A DNA stretch of 55,103 nt. Origin: Nitrospirota bacterium (GTDB taxonomy: Bacteria; Nitrospirota; 9FT-COMBO-42-15; HDB-SIOI813). The stretch covers positions 1-55,103 of the forward strand of contig JADLDG010000091.1 in assembly GCA_020846775.1 (NCBI GenBank), given 5' to 3'. Shown in pieces: positions 10,738 to 16,373 of this stretch. The position numbers and the translations under genes are program-made. How positions within the stretch are numbered: position 1 is the stretch's first letter; every line of letters starts with the position of its first letter. The notes beneath the pieces are model-generated. The model was given only the letters and a program-made list of their open reading frames with translations, made no database searches and was not told the DNA's origin.

Positions 10738-10764
10738 GTTAAATAGGGACAGCGCCTATTTAAC
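10738..10764 (+). terminator. Hairpin after murJ
   Basis: GTTAAATAGG (10738-10747) and CCTATTTAAC (10755-10764) form a perfect 10-bp stem with a 7-base loop, immediately after the murJ stop codon. The left arm repeats the sequence at the gene end itself (AGTTAAATAGGAGTTAAATAGG). No T-run follows, so it is more likely a 3'-end stabiliser or weak terminator than a strong intrinsic one. Confidence 0.5.
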
Positions 10765-10883
10765 TGCAACGACCGGATACCGCGCCGATAATCTTATCAG
10801 AGACTCTCATTATAATGACCAGTAACCGATAGTAACGTAGACGATATTCCCTTGTCTAAAAACCGCAAAGAGGAGCTGGATTT

Positions 10884-11894
10884 ATGTCTCACTCAAGCAC
10901 AATAAGTAGTCTATGTAAATTATTTCTGTTGTTTATTATGTTTTCCTTCATCACTTCCTGCGATAAGAATTTACAGGGTAAAGCTGAAGTCGTAAAGAAA
11001 CCTGAAGTAAGCGTAGGCCGTCTGATTTGCGGTGGACATCTCCCTTTGTCCGTTGCTGAGAAGAAGTTCCAGGATGATCTTACTACTTTTCGTCTCAAAA
11101 CTGTCCAAAACCATGACTGGGACGCAGTAATGAAGGACTTGAAAGCCGGCAGGCTGTCAGGGACTTTCATTATATCACCCCTGGCTATGAAATTGATCCG
11201 TGATGGTTTTCCTGTCAAGATCGTACTCAAGGCCGACAGAAACGGTAATGGCTTTATTCTCTCTAATAAGATAAAGTCCATAGATGCACTTAATGACATG
11301 AAGACTATCATTGCAGTGCCTCACATCTATTCCCAGCACAATGTCTTACTGCACATGGTATTGAAACAACACAGGGTCTCCCTTGATAAAGTCACAATAA
11401 TAGGAATGCCTCCGCGAGACATGATAAACTCCCTGCGTCAAGGTGAAATCGATGGTTTCATGATAGGTGAACCGGAAGGAAACAAGTCCGTCGAGATCGG
11501 TGTGGGTTGGATGGCAGCAATCTCCCCTGAGATATGGAAAGACCACATGGATCATGTGCTCATTGCCACAGACCAGTTCATCAAAGAGCACCCCGAACAA
11601 CTTCAGGAACTCATAAATGCCCTCGTAAAAAGCGGACAGTATATAGAGTCACATCCACATGAAGCAGCCGTAATAGGGGAAGATTATACCGGCTCCAATG
11701 CCTCAGTCTTTGAAAAGGTACTGACTACACCACCTGACTGGATAGACTACTCAGATATGGTACCGACAATAGAAGATCTTCGTGCAATGTCACAGAAGTT
11801 AGTCAATATGGGTCTCTGGAAAGAACAACCGGAGAATTTAGCTTCCTTTATGGATACCCGATTTGTCGAAAAGGCAGTATCCGTAAACAAATGA
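10884..11894 (+). CDS. NrtA/SsuA-type solute-binding lipoprotein
   Basis: A 336-residue lipoprotein. The signal peptide ends with ITSC, placing lipidation at C26. The mature part resembles NrtA/CmpA/SsuA-type binding proteins: VGRLICGGHLPLSVAEKKF, DAVMKDLKAGRLSGTFIISP, the AVPHIYSQHNVLLHMVLK segment and GEIDGFMIGEPEGNKS. Family members bind nitrate, bicarbonate, sulfonates or similar small ligands. No permease or ATPase is adjacent; a membrane GGDEF/EAL protein starts 16 bases downstream, so a sensory rather than transport role is plausible (inference). GAGGAG lies eight bases before the ATG. Confidence 0.8.
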   Translation: MSHSSTISSLCKLFLLFIMFSFITSCDKNLQGKAEVVKKPEVSVGRLICGGHLPLSVAEKKFQDDLTTFRLKTVQNHDWDAVMKDLKAGRLSGTFIISPLAMKLIRDGFPVKIVLKADRNGNGFILSNKIKSIDALNDMKTIIAVPHIYSQHNVLLHMVLKQHRVSLDKVTIIGMPPRDMINSLRQGEIDGFMIGEPEGNKSVEIGVGWMAAISPEIWKDHMDHVLIATDQFIKEHPEQLQELINALVKSGQYIESHPHEAAVIGEDYTGSNASVFEKVLTTPPDWIDYSDMVPTIEDLRAMSQKLVNMGLWKEQPENLASFMDTRFVEKAVSVNK

Positions 11895-11910
11895 GTAAAA
11901 TATTTTCATA

Positions 11911-14712
11911 ATGAAGTTTAAGTTATCCCTAAAATATTCATGGTATGGACTAATTGGACTTGTGGGTTTGCTGCCCGCACTTATCATATTAGTGTTGGTT
12001 GTTCTCAAACTTTATTCTACTTTTCTTGAGAATGCGCTGTTAAAGGAAAGACATTTCAATGATGCCGCTGCAATCCAGGTGGGAAACGAAGTCTCACGAC
12101 TTATCTCCGTATTGAGCCACGAGAGTGATTCCATAGAGTCCGCTTTAGAAAGGGATAGAGATAAGAATTTATTGAATGAACAATTAAGGTCTATCATGAG
12201 ACGTGCAGAAGCAATCAATTCCCTGCTTATCCTCGGCATTGATGGCAAAATTGTTGCCAGCTTTGATCGTTTCAGATCTGATCGTTTCATTGATAATTAT
12301 GAATGGCTACTATCCAACGATCTTGTTCCTGACAAACTGTCACCGACCTTTGTCATTCCCATGCACGGGAGAACGTACATCGGTCCAACCACAAATTATG
12401 CGGGTTTACAGTTATTTGATATTGCAGTGCCGGTAGGTCCACTTGAACAACCAACAGCTATGCTGCTGGCAAAAGTTGATGCAACAACATTATGGCATAC
12501 TCTTGAGCCGCGGCTGACGCGGCCAGGAATAATAACATACCTCGTAGACCGGCGCGGGAGTATACTGACTTCACATAGGGATTCAAGGTATGAGGTTGGA
12601 CATTTGGCGACTAATCTTGATATCATCCGGGCATTGCTTTCAAACAGTGACTGGGATGTGGAAAAGACTTATCAGGGACTAAGCGGAAACAGAGTATTTG
12701 GAACAGTTTCAACCATTAAAATAGTTAATTGGGGTGTTATATCCGAAATTCCACAACAGCAAATCACAAAACACATTTACAATATCCTTATCCGAATCAC
12801 AGCAATCACCGTCGGCTTTCTTTCAATATTCACCTTTTTAGGGCTTGCGTTAGTTAAACGCATTATTAACCCTATAGAATTATTATCATCTGATTTTAAG
12901 CGCCCAGGCAACAGGGATTATTCCCCAAGCCAGGCAGTGTCATCCATTAAGGAGCTGCAATCGCTGGCAGACGGCTTTAACCGTATGGTCACAGATATTA
13001 AAAAAAATGAGCAACTACTTCACAAATTCAGCCTTGCTGTTGAGCAGAGCCCAAACTCAGTAGTTATAACCGACACCGATGGCATAATAGAATATGTCAA
13101 TCCAAAGTTTACAAGATTGACAGGATATACAAGTAAAGAGGTTAACGGGCAGAGTCCTAATATCTTAAAATCCGGCATACATAAACCAGAATACTATAAA
13201 CAATTATGGGATACGATCACATCCGGTAAAGTATGGAGAGGAGAATTTTATAACAAGAAAAAGAATGGTGAATTCTACTGGGAAAGCGCATCTATATCAC
13301 CACTCACTAATGAAAAAGGAGTTATCACTCATTTCATCGCAGTAAAGGAAGACATCTCCGAGCGAAAGAAGTCCGAAGAAACCATCTTAAAAATGGCATA
13401 TCATGACCAACTTACCGGACTTCCGAACAGGGTCCTTCTCATTGATCGTCTTAACCATTTGCTGGCCCAGGGAAGAAGAAGTAAAAGGCTTGCAGCAATC
13501 CTTTTCCTTGATCTTGATAACTTTAAGCATATCAATGACTCATTTGGACATGCTGAAGGTGACAATCTGCTCAAAGAGGTATCTGAAAGATTGAATAAGC
13601 ATACACGCTCCTGTGATACACTGGCCCGGCATGGTGGGGACGAATTTATAATTCTCATAGATGATCTTAAAAAGGTTGACAATATTACTCAGGTAGTCGA
13701 ACGTATATTTTCAGAATTTAATAAACCTTTCGTTCTGAACGGGCAAGTTTGCTTTGTCACAACAAGTATTGGTATCAGTATATATCCCGACGACGGAGAG
13801 GATGTCAGTACACTTCTTAAGAACGCCGACATCGCGATGTACAGGGCAAAGGAAGAAGGTAAAAACACCTACCAGCTTTATGAGCCAGCTATGACCGAGA
13901 GAACAATTGAGATTGTAAAAATGAAGAGCATGCTCCATATGGCTATTGAAAACAGAGAGTTTATTCTGCACTACCAACCACAAGTTAATATTTCCACTGG
14001 TAATATTATTGGTCTCGAGGCCCTTGTTCGTTGGCAGAATCCGGAAAGAGGGCTGATTTCTCCAGGTAATTTCATACCACTGGCTGAGGATACCGGACTT
14101 ATTGTGCCTATAGGCGAATGGGTATTACATTCAGCTTGTGTACAGAACAAATTCTGGCAAGATAAATGTCTTAAGCCAGTCAAAGTGGCTGTAAACCTAT
14201 CTATACGCCAGCTGGTGCAAAAAGATTTTGTAGGTACGGTAAAGAGGATACTAAAGGATACCAGACTGGACCCGGGATATCTGGAACTTGAGGTGACCGA
14301 AAGCGCAGTGATGGAAGACATAGAGTCCAACATAGAGATACTGCATGAATTAAAGTCTCTTGGAATAAGAATATCAATTGACGATTTTGGCACAGGTTAT
14401 TCCTCTTTTGAATATCTCAAACGGATGCCTATTGATATGCTGAAGATAGGTATGCCGTTTGTGCGTGATATTATTAACAACCCTGATGATGCGGCTATTG
14501 CTACATCTATCATTCAGGTGGCTCATATCATGAATTTGGAAGTAATGGCTGAGGGTGTTGAAACGATAGAGCAGTTCAGGTTACTCGGCACTTTACTGTG
14601 TGACAATGTTCAGGGTTTTCTGGTGTCAAAACCACTACCCTCTTCCAAAGGAATCGAAGAGTTTTTGATAAAAGAATGGCGATTTTTTGATAGCCGGTTA
14701 TTATTTGTATAA
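11911..14712 (+). CDS. Membrane c-di-GMP cyclase/phosphodiesterase (CACHE-HAMP-PAS-GGDEF-EAL)
   Basis: A 933-residue inner-membrane signalling protein. A first membrane segment (about 13-35) and a second (about 290-316) flank a periplasmic CACHE-like sensor domain. A HAMP-like region (about 317-370), a PAS domain (about 371-487), a GGDEF domain (about 490-660) and an EAL domain (about 670-920) follow. GGDEF is intact at 575-579, with an RxxD inhibitory site at 566-569. The EAL motif is intact (703-705), as are DDFGTGYSS (824-832) and AEGVE. The usual KID is changed to K845-I-G847, so phosphodiesterase activity may be altered. It begins 16 bases after the solute-binding lipoprotein gene and probably shares its transcript. 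Confidence 0.92.
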   Translation: MKFKLSLKYSWYGLIGLVGLLPALIILVLVVLKLYSTFLENALLKERHFNDAAAIQVGNEVSRLISVLSHESDSIESALERDRDKNLLNEQLRSIMRRAEAINSLLILGIDGKIVASFDRFRSDRFIDNYEWLLSNDLVPDKLSPTFVIPMHGRTYIGPTTNYAGLQLFDIAVPVGPLEQPTAMLLAKVDATTLWHTLEPRLTRPGIITYLVDRRGSILTSHRDSRYEVGHLATNLDIIRALLSNSDWDVEKTYQGLSGNRVFGTVSTIKIVNWGVISEIPQQQITKHIYNILIRITAITVGFLSIFTFLGLALVKRIINPIELLSSDFKRPGNRDYSPSQAVSSIKELQSLADGFNRMVTDIKKNEQLLHKFSLAVEQSPNSVVITDTDGIIEYVNPKFTRLTGYTSKEVNGQSPNILKSGIHKPEYYKQLWDTITSGKVWRGEFYNKKKNGEFYWESASISPLTNEKGVITHFIAVKEDISERKKSEETILKMAYHDQLTGLPNRVLLIDRLNHLLAQGRRSKRLAAILFLDLDNFKHINDSFGHAEGDNLLKEVSERLNKHTRSCDTLARHGGDEFIILIDDLKKVDNITQVVERIFSEFNKPFVLNGQVCFVTTSIGISIYPDDGEDVSTLLKNADIAMYRAKEEGKNTYQLYEPAMTERTIEIVKMKSMLHMAIENREFILHYQPQVNISTGNIIGLEALVRWQNPERGLISPGNFIPLAEDTGLIVPIGEWVLHSACVQNKFWQDKCLKPVKVAVNLSIRQLVQKDFVGTVKRILKDTRLDPGYLELEVTESAVMEDIESNIEILHELKSLGIRISIDDFGTGYSSFEYLKRMPIDMLKIGMPFVRDIINNPDDAAIATSIIQVAHIMNLEVMAEGVETIEQFRLLGTLLCDNVQGFLVSKPLPSSKGIEEFLIKEWRFFDSRLLFV

Positions 14713-14810
14713 ATACTGATTGGATTATTATACAATAACTATGATATTTGTGGAGGGTTATACGGACCAACTCCCTTCTTCTGATTGATTATTCCAACAG
14801 TTGTGGTAAC

Positions 14811-16373
14811 ATGAAAAAGATAAACAACCGACCACTTCAGTTATTCTTTTCCCTAAGTTGCCTCTTCGTTCTCTTTTTTTTAATACCCCCGTTTGTATTT
14901 GCTGACGCACCGAACGATGTATTCTTGTTTAAAAAGCTTGCGTTGCTGAATACTGATGATCGTACAGGAAAAGACTACGGCGAGAAAATTGAAAAAATCG
15001 TCAGAGACGAGCTTGAGCAGATGCTGAGGTTCGATATCATTCCGCAGGATAAAGTTCGTGTTCAACACCCGCTCTCGCAGCAATCGTTAGGCACGATCAA
15101 CAAAATATTGCAGGCTGACGGGTTTATCGTTGGCCGGGTTGATCTTTCCAATGAAATGATAAACATCTCTCTTGAGATCCTTGATAAGAGGGGGGAGATG
15201 TTTGCTCTGGAACTACTGGCCGTTAATGAGCTGGCATCTCTGGCTGATTTGGAGGAAAACGTTCGCGAACTAGTTGTGAAATTGATCCGGCGAATACCTT
15301 ATAAGGCAGTCATCACACAGGTTAAAAATGGAGTAGTGACCTTTGATGCGGGCCTCAAACATGGGGTTGAGACAGGATCGAAAGTGTCCCTCTTTGAGAT
15401 CATCGGGGTGAAACGGCATCCTTATACCGACGAGATTATCTCATTCAAGCGGAAAGACCTGGGAGTAATTCAGGTTACACAGGTGGAGGATCTATCAGCA
15501 ACCGGAAAGATTATCAGTAGTAAAAAGGGGGCTAAGATCAAAGCTGGCAGTAAGGCGGATTTTATCCCATCCGAGAAATTTATCCTTGAAAGTCATATAG
15601 AGAAGAATGAGTTGTTGGCCGAAAAAAAGCTGTCGCCTGAATTGCTCAACACCGGAGAACAGAGGTTGACCAAAGAACCTCCGGGACGGCCCCGGGGATC
15701 ACTGGCAGTAAGCGCCGGTCTCCTCCTTAATGACTATAAAATCAGCTCAAATCAGTTCAACTTCAGGCGTGATACGTCACCAGTCACATCAGTCACCATG
15801 GCTGGAGAGTACTGGGTTCTTGCACCACTGGGGGCAGATGTCTCTTACTCAGCTTCCTGGATTTATTTCAAACAGACTGGCAGCGTTCCTAAGACGGATG
15901 CATCGCTTTCATGGCTGACAGCCCATCTCAAGTATCGCCATTTCTTTTCAAGCGATCGTTTGAGTCCGGAGATAGTCGGGTCTGTAGGCTACCACATCTA
16001 TGATTTCGAGGTAGACAAAAGCGATTCTAAATATTTCAACAATATCAAATACAGCGGAATAGACATAGCATTGACTGCGAGTTATCCTATGACATCAAAA
16101 ATGAAAGGGGTCGTAAACGTCGGATACCTGCCATCTCTCGATATAGAGGAAGACCCGGTGACCAGTGGAACAAACCCGCATGCCTATGGATATTATTTCG
16201 GTCTGGCAGAACACTTTAACGTGTCTGACAAGACAGCATTAGCGCTGCGATATTATTATCTGGCATACCATGCAAAGTTCAGCGGAGACGGAACAAGGGG
16301 TGCCGGAACAACCGATACTGAAATTCGAGACCTTTGTCAGGGAATTAATTTAAGCCTTATTTACGAGTGGTAA
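14811..16373 (+). CDS. Exported protein with C-terminal outer-membrane beta-barrel, function unknown
   Basis: A 520-residue protein. The signal peptide ends near PPFVFADAP. The N-terminal half resembles soluble TolB/FlgT-like folds (FLFKKLALLNTDDRTGKDYG; ADGFIVGRVDLSNEMINISL), followed by a beta-rich region with GVETGSKVSLFEI. From about residue 290, alternating strands and a final EW suggest an outer-membrane barrel (GYYFGLAEHFNVSDKTALAL near the end). The start is set at ATG 14811, where the signal peptide begins; the ribosome site is weak. It is not a clear member of any family I know. It follows the GGDEF/EAL gene after about 100 bases and its 3' end overlaps rsmI by 17 bases. Confidence 0.65.
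   Translation: MKKINNRPLQLFFSLSCLFVLFFLIPPFVFADAPNDVFLFKKLALLNTDDRTGKDYGEKIEKIVRDELEQMLRFDIIPQDKVRVQHPLSQQSLGTINKILQADGFIVGRVDLSNEMINISLEILDKRGEMFALELLAVNELASLADLEENVRELVVKLIRRIPYKAVITQVKNGVVTFDAGLKHGVETGSKVSLFEIIGVKRHPYTDEIISFKRKDLGVIQVTQVEDLSATGKIISSKKGAKIKAGSKADFIPSEKFILESHIEKNELLAEKKLSPELLNTGEQRLTKEPPGRPRGSLAVSAGLLLNDYKISSNQFNFRRDTSPVTSVTMAGEYWVLAPLGADVSYSASWIYFKQTGSVPKTDASLSWLTAHLKYRHFFSSDRLSPEIVGSVGYHIYDFEVDKSDSKYFNNIKYSGIDIALTASYPMTSKMKGVVNVGYLPSLDIEEDPVTSGTNPHAYGYYFGLAEHFNVSDKTALALRYYYLAYHAKFSGDGTRGAGTTDTEIRDLCQGINLSLIYEW

Follow-up and report, generated by a model that had tools for sequence, protein, structure and literature searches.

A solute-binding lipoprotein paired with a dCache receptor: a probable ligand-sensing unit with interchangeable output

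We analyzed a 55,103-nucleotide stretch of DNA from a Nitrospirota bacterium (contig JADLDG010000091.1; the window) and found two adjacent genes, encoding a solute-binding lipoprotein and a membrane receptor, whose products probably form a single ligand-sensing receptor: the lipoprotein would capture a ligand, dock on the dCache domain of its neighbor and thereby switch the output. The initial annotation of this region had described three open reading frames, the third encoding a barrel protein, with 16 nt between the lipoprotein and receptor genes, and all of this is borne out.

The lipoprotein gene (10884-11894, + strand) is preceded by a ribosome-binding site, GAGGAG, read in the sequence at 10870-10875 (+), and encodes 336 residues with a lipobox whose Cys26 is invariant in an alignment of relatives. 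The protein matches the Pfam family NMT1_2 (PF13379) at 107.7 bits, well above the gathering cut-off of 24.7 (E 1e-30), as well as NMT1 (5e-11); no further Pfam family was matched, so it is not of the PotD type (SBP_bac). It reaches 94.5 bits against the NCBIfam model SsuA_fam, under the curated cut-off of 163.5, and scores far under the cut-offs of the other NCBIfam NrtA/SsuA/TauA transport models. The closest solved structures are 3un6, the NrtC/CmpC regulatory domains, NrtA and TauA. Because the AlphaFold model of the lipoprotein is poor (pLDDT 61), we used it for the fold only and do not name a ligand from structure. Directly 3' of murJ, bordering the pair upstream, lies a palindrome, GTTAAATAGG-GACAGCG-CCTATTTAAC (10738-10764), possibly a terminator-like or repeat element, whose left half is present once in the window.

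The receptor gene (11911-14712, +) encodes a 933-residue protein of the layout dCache-HAMP-PAS-GGDEF-EAL. PAS, GGDEF and EAL are matched by Pfam, HAMP only weakly and dCache_1 under the gathering score; the AlphaFold model of residues 1-365, however, matches solved dCache sensor domains of chemoreceptors and kinases (E about 1e-9). This periplasmic domain, the predicted docking site of the lipoprotein, spans residues 45-288 approximately (12043-12774, +; pLDDT mostly 75-94) and by hydropathy is flanked on either side by a membrane helix, the hydrophobic windows of which start at residues 9-26 and at residues 289-301. It is followed by a HAMP linker (residues 314-363; 12850-12999, +), weak in the window and clear in relatives, and by the PAS domain (residues 372-486; 13024-13368, +). 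The GGDEF domain (13396-13866, +) retains the GGDEF motif and the RxxD inhibition site intact, the sequence features of an active diguanylate cyclase, and the EAL domain (13930-14634, +) keeps the motifs EALVR, DDFGTGYSS and AEGVET, with LKIG in place of LKID. The GC content of the receptor gene is slightly lower (0.41 vs. 0.44), too small a gap for transfer to be inferred from base composition.

The pairing of the two genes extends far beyond chance. When 84,980 species genomes were scanned for the lipoprotein, six relatives with 59-65% identity came up; one belongs to a 'Deltaproteobacteria' MAG, the other five to Mariprofundaceae/Zetaproteobacteria-type genomes. Each is followed, at a distance of -4 to +21 nt, by a gene for a large membrane protein that matches the window receptor over the first ~490 residues. 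A profile search of the 78 Zetaproteobacteria-class genomes (the class of Mariprofundus) detected the lipoprotein in 19 of them and the input part of the receptor in 20: both occur in 19, the lipoprotein alone in none and the input alone in one (Fisher P = 3e-17, which is only indicative because within a single class much co-variation comes from shared descent). G342 is the sole input-alone genome, and its receptor gene is cut off by the end of the contig. With the window genome, its congener G002 and the 'Deltaproteobacteria' MAG added to the 19, the lipoprotein lies directly upstream of a dCache-HAMP receptor in 22 of the 22 genomes with a close lipoprotein relative. Conserved co-occurrence, which the initial annotation had proposed as a check, holds for these two genes. 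Among 296 sampled genomes of the window's phylum, only two have the lipoprotein, both of the window's genus. The pairwise identities of lipoprotein and receptor correlate (r = 0.88), and both protein trees group the window with G002, L019, L065 and L066, as expected if the pair had travelled together. Two disrupted loci were also seen: in G316 (L070:3238-3912) the lipoprotein gene is cut to its last third beside an intact receptor gene, and at L056:2668-6430 the receptor gene breaks off after PAS, and genes for an IS200-like (Y1) transposase and a serine recombinase come next.

The receptors share their input but differ in what follows it. In the five Zetaproteobacteria-type pairs, dCache-HAMP-PAS is continued by HisKA, HATPase and REC (Pfam), while the receptor of the 'Deltaproteobacteria' MAG has additional PAS domains and then GGDEF-EAL, as in the window. 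A divergent pair, L065, combines a kinase with a second kinase/receiver gene. In the congener (L071, G002:C47), the receptor ends shortly after GGDEF and the EAL domain has been lost; no EAL remnant was found, and toxin-antitoxin-like genes come next. A common dCache-HAMP-PAS arrangement with differing outputs indicates that the same input drives different outputs, as a self-standing sensory module would. The link from 'nutrient' sensing to c-di-GMP that had been envisaged initially does not generalize, since most relatives have a histidine kinase output.

The receptor-linked lipoproteins also carry a residue signature of their own. In an alignment of 19 of them, R46, C49, G50, G51, H77, N122, Q151, R178, E198, N200, P215, D223 and H224 are invariant, and the transporter-linked relatives and CheW fusions described below lack this set; H147 is common only to the fusions. 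Judged from the alignment, the signature is cleft-like and probably marks a subfamily with one conserved specificity. Its richness in His, Cys, Arg and Asp, together with the iron-oxidizer-centered lineages in which it occurs, would leave room for a ligand that is a metal, is linked to a metal or is an oxyanion, which would be new for such receptors. Nitrate and bicarbonate were considered as ligands and find no support: the Asp223-His224 pair aligns (within one residue) next to what we take to be the specificity residue of NrtA (Lys269) and CmpA (Glu270), and the aligned positions differ. More tentatively, and with somewhat less than even confidence, we suggest that a dedicated NMT1_2 family left transport to become the sensory subunit of dCache receptors, that it offers one fixed specificity to either a hybrid histidine kinase or GGDEF-EAL, and that it moved across phyla.

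Beyond the 22 genomes, the profile score drops from more than 430 bits (near-complete genes) to less than 180 bits. Many of these distant relatives adjoin ABC permease and ATPase genes (e.g., L116, L119, L122 and L129), and others are cytoplasmic REC-NMT1_2-CheW fusions. The fusions are proteins of about 640-690 residues with no evident signal peptide (L121:7823-9856 and L072:5727-7649, both on the - strand, assigned by Pfam); similar ones occur in L117, L120, L123, L127 and L128, as judged by size and REC/SBP match. They resemble CheV-like chemotaxis coupling proteins with a cytoplasmic binding-protein domain, and they occur in genomes from the same phylum as the 'Deltaproteobacteria' MAG and in one from the window's phylum.

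It is instructive to compare the pair with systems in which a binding protein acts on a receptor. In Vibrio, the AI-2-binding protein LuxP, of type I, docks on a tandem-PAS (dCache-like) domain that the hybrid histidine kinase LuxQ exposes in the periplasm. This layout of binding protein, tandem-PAS/dCache domain and hybrid histidine kinase is that of the Zetaproteobacterial pairs, not of the window, and LuxP belongs to the type I family, in contrast to the NMT1_2 lipoprotein; we know of no c-di-GMP version of LuxP-LuxQ. NspS-MbaA of Vibrio cholerae, with homologues in Sinorhizobium, shares with the window pair a periplasmic binding protein and an adjoining membrane GGDEF-EAL receptor, but NspS is a PotD-type (SBP_bac) protein that senses polyamines, whereas the window's binding protein is of the NMT1_2 type and most of its relatives are coupled to a histidine kinase output. 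ArtI of Salmonella is a binding protein of transport type, putatively for L-arginine, whereas the lipoprotein is a dedicated neighbor without a transporter. NrtA, CmpA, SsuA, TauA and the NrtC/CmpC regulatory domains belong to the same sequence superfamily as the lipoprotein, but they serve or regulate ABC transporters. NspS-MbaA provides a ligand-dependent switch between c-di-GMP synthesis and breakdown (PMC8967002, PMC9993111), and the c-di-GMP enzyme STM1987 requires ArtI in order to signal through its dCache_1 domain (PMC8846402). Stimulation of receptors by binding proteins is a general mechanism (PMC9602780), and domains of the binding-protein clan are prevalent with c-di-GMP enzymes and hardly studied (reviewed in PMC8846402). 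Our search of open-licence papers for NMT1-type binding proteins that partner receptors found no description of the lipoprotein-dCache pair. By analogy, the best reading is that the pair would be a periplasmic co-receptor working like NspS-MbaA, ArtI-STM1987 or LuxP-LuxQ, with a different binding-protein family and an interchangeable output; the family and the output swap are new, while the kind of receptor is already known.

How might such a co-receptor work? The envelope-anchored lipoprotein would use its Venus-flytrap cleft to bind one particular small ligand and would dock on the periplasmic dCache domain. The second membrane helix, HAMP and PAS would then relay docking, or release upon ligand binding, to the output. 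Because the output of the window receptor is GGDEF-EAL, the predicted effect there is a shift, in either direction, in the balance between c-di-GMP synthesis and breakdown; in Zetaproteobacteria, the same input would drive a hybrid histidine kinase. Few binding-protein-driven c-di-GMP receptors are known, and natural variation provides a clean test here, since one input is found joined to two kinds of output. The ligand should be findable because conservation is strong and the pair recurs in iron-oxidizing marine bacteria, including the cultured Mariprofundus erugo.

Some observations sit less easily with a co-receptor. The lipoprotein, at a mean identity of 65%, is more conserved than the receptor input, at 41%; no docking surface stood out as conserved; and G316 keeps its receptor despite the truncated lipoprotein gene. 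Ligand binding could also reside in the dCache domain itself, as many dCache domains among the structural matches bind small ligands directly. In that case, the lipoprotein might concentrate or buffer a second molecule, or modulate the receptor in its ligand-free form as an apo-form regulator. In the NspS-MbaA model, MbaA with no NspS bound is mostly a phosphodiesterase (PMC8967002), so a free receptor can have an activity of its own. We nevertheless regard direct dCache binding as unlikely: the lipoprotein signature is strictly invariant, whereas identity in the dCache part has fallen to about 30%, a pattern that suits ligand recognition in the lipoprotein.

It is still less probable that the lipoprotein is the binding protein of an ABC transporter with its permease elsewhere, neighboring the receptor in a common operon that serves joint expression only. 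The NMT1_2 family is mostly transport-associated, and the relatives below 180 bits that adjoin permease and ATPase genes fit this idea. However, the linkage to the receptor in every one of the 22 genomes and the private signature both argue against it, and the transport genes that might have been feared beside lipoprotein orthologues are never found beside the close ones. The absence of permease and ATPase genes near the pair, pointed out initially, holds, and for permeases of the NitT/TauT type it extends to the genome as a whole. The window genome is 99.6% complete and contains a single NMT1_2 protein, the lipoprotein of the pair. Of its ten BPD_transp_1 permease matches, six were examined and are of the oligopeptide/nickel (Opp/Dpp), phosphate (Pst), sugar and molybdate (Mod) types, and the other four adjoin these or nearly duplicate them, as judged by position or score. 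Because no NitT/TauT-type permease was found in this genome, an orphan transporter subunit is unlikely.

The third gene is a neighbor rather than part of the conserved unit of lipoprotein and receptor. Its reading frame (14748-16373) gives 541 residues counted from TTG; the likelier start is the ATG at 14811, directly followed by a signal peptide and about 98 nt past the receptor stop, so that the outer-membrane or periplasmic barrel protein is encoded at 14811-16373 (+). It has only weak TolB_N and FlgT_C similarity. The initial annotation had placed all three genes in one envelope-signalling module, and of that proposal the lipoprotein serving a Cache receptor is supported, the two being neighbors in every relative, while the barrel gene falls away: it was not found beside the pair in any relative, the same-genus G002 included. 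The rsmI-hpt-tilS-ribF block is conserved in the window's family, but beyond rsmI the seven family genomes read depart from the window arrangement, and murJ, the pair and the barrel gene are all missing there. Two further genomes of the phylum, G020 and G049, carry barrel relatives with 36-37% identity, elsewhere and without the pair. The differing gene order beyond rsmI and these relatives without the pair indicate that the barrel gene adjoins it by local arrangement only. A three-gene module, for which the common strand and the lack of a terminator-like site between the genes on that strand would speak, is therefore highly improbable and contradicted by gene order in relatives. The N-terminal half of the barrel protein, which bears the weak TolB_N/FlgT_C likeness, is doubled in tandem in proteins of 970-985 residues in two genomes of the phylum (L137:5227-8139 and L138:2929-5886).
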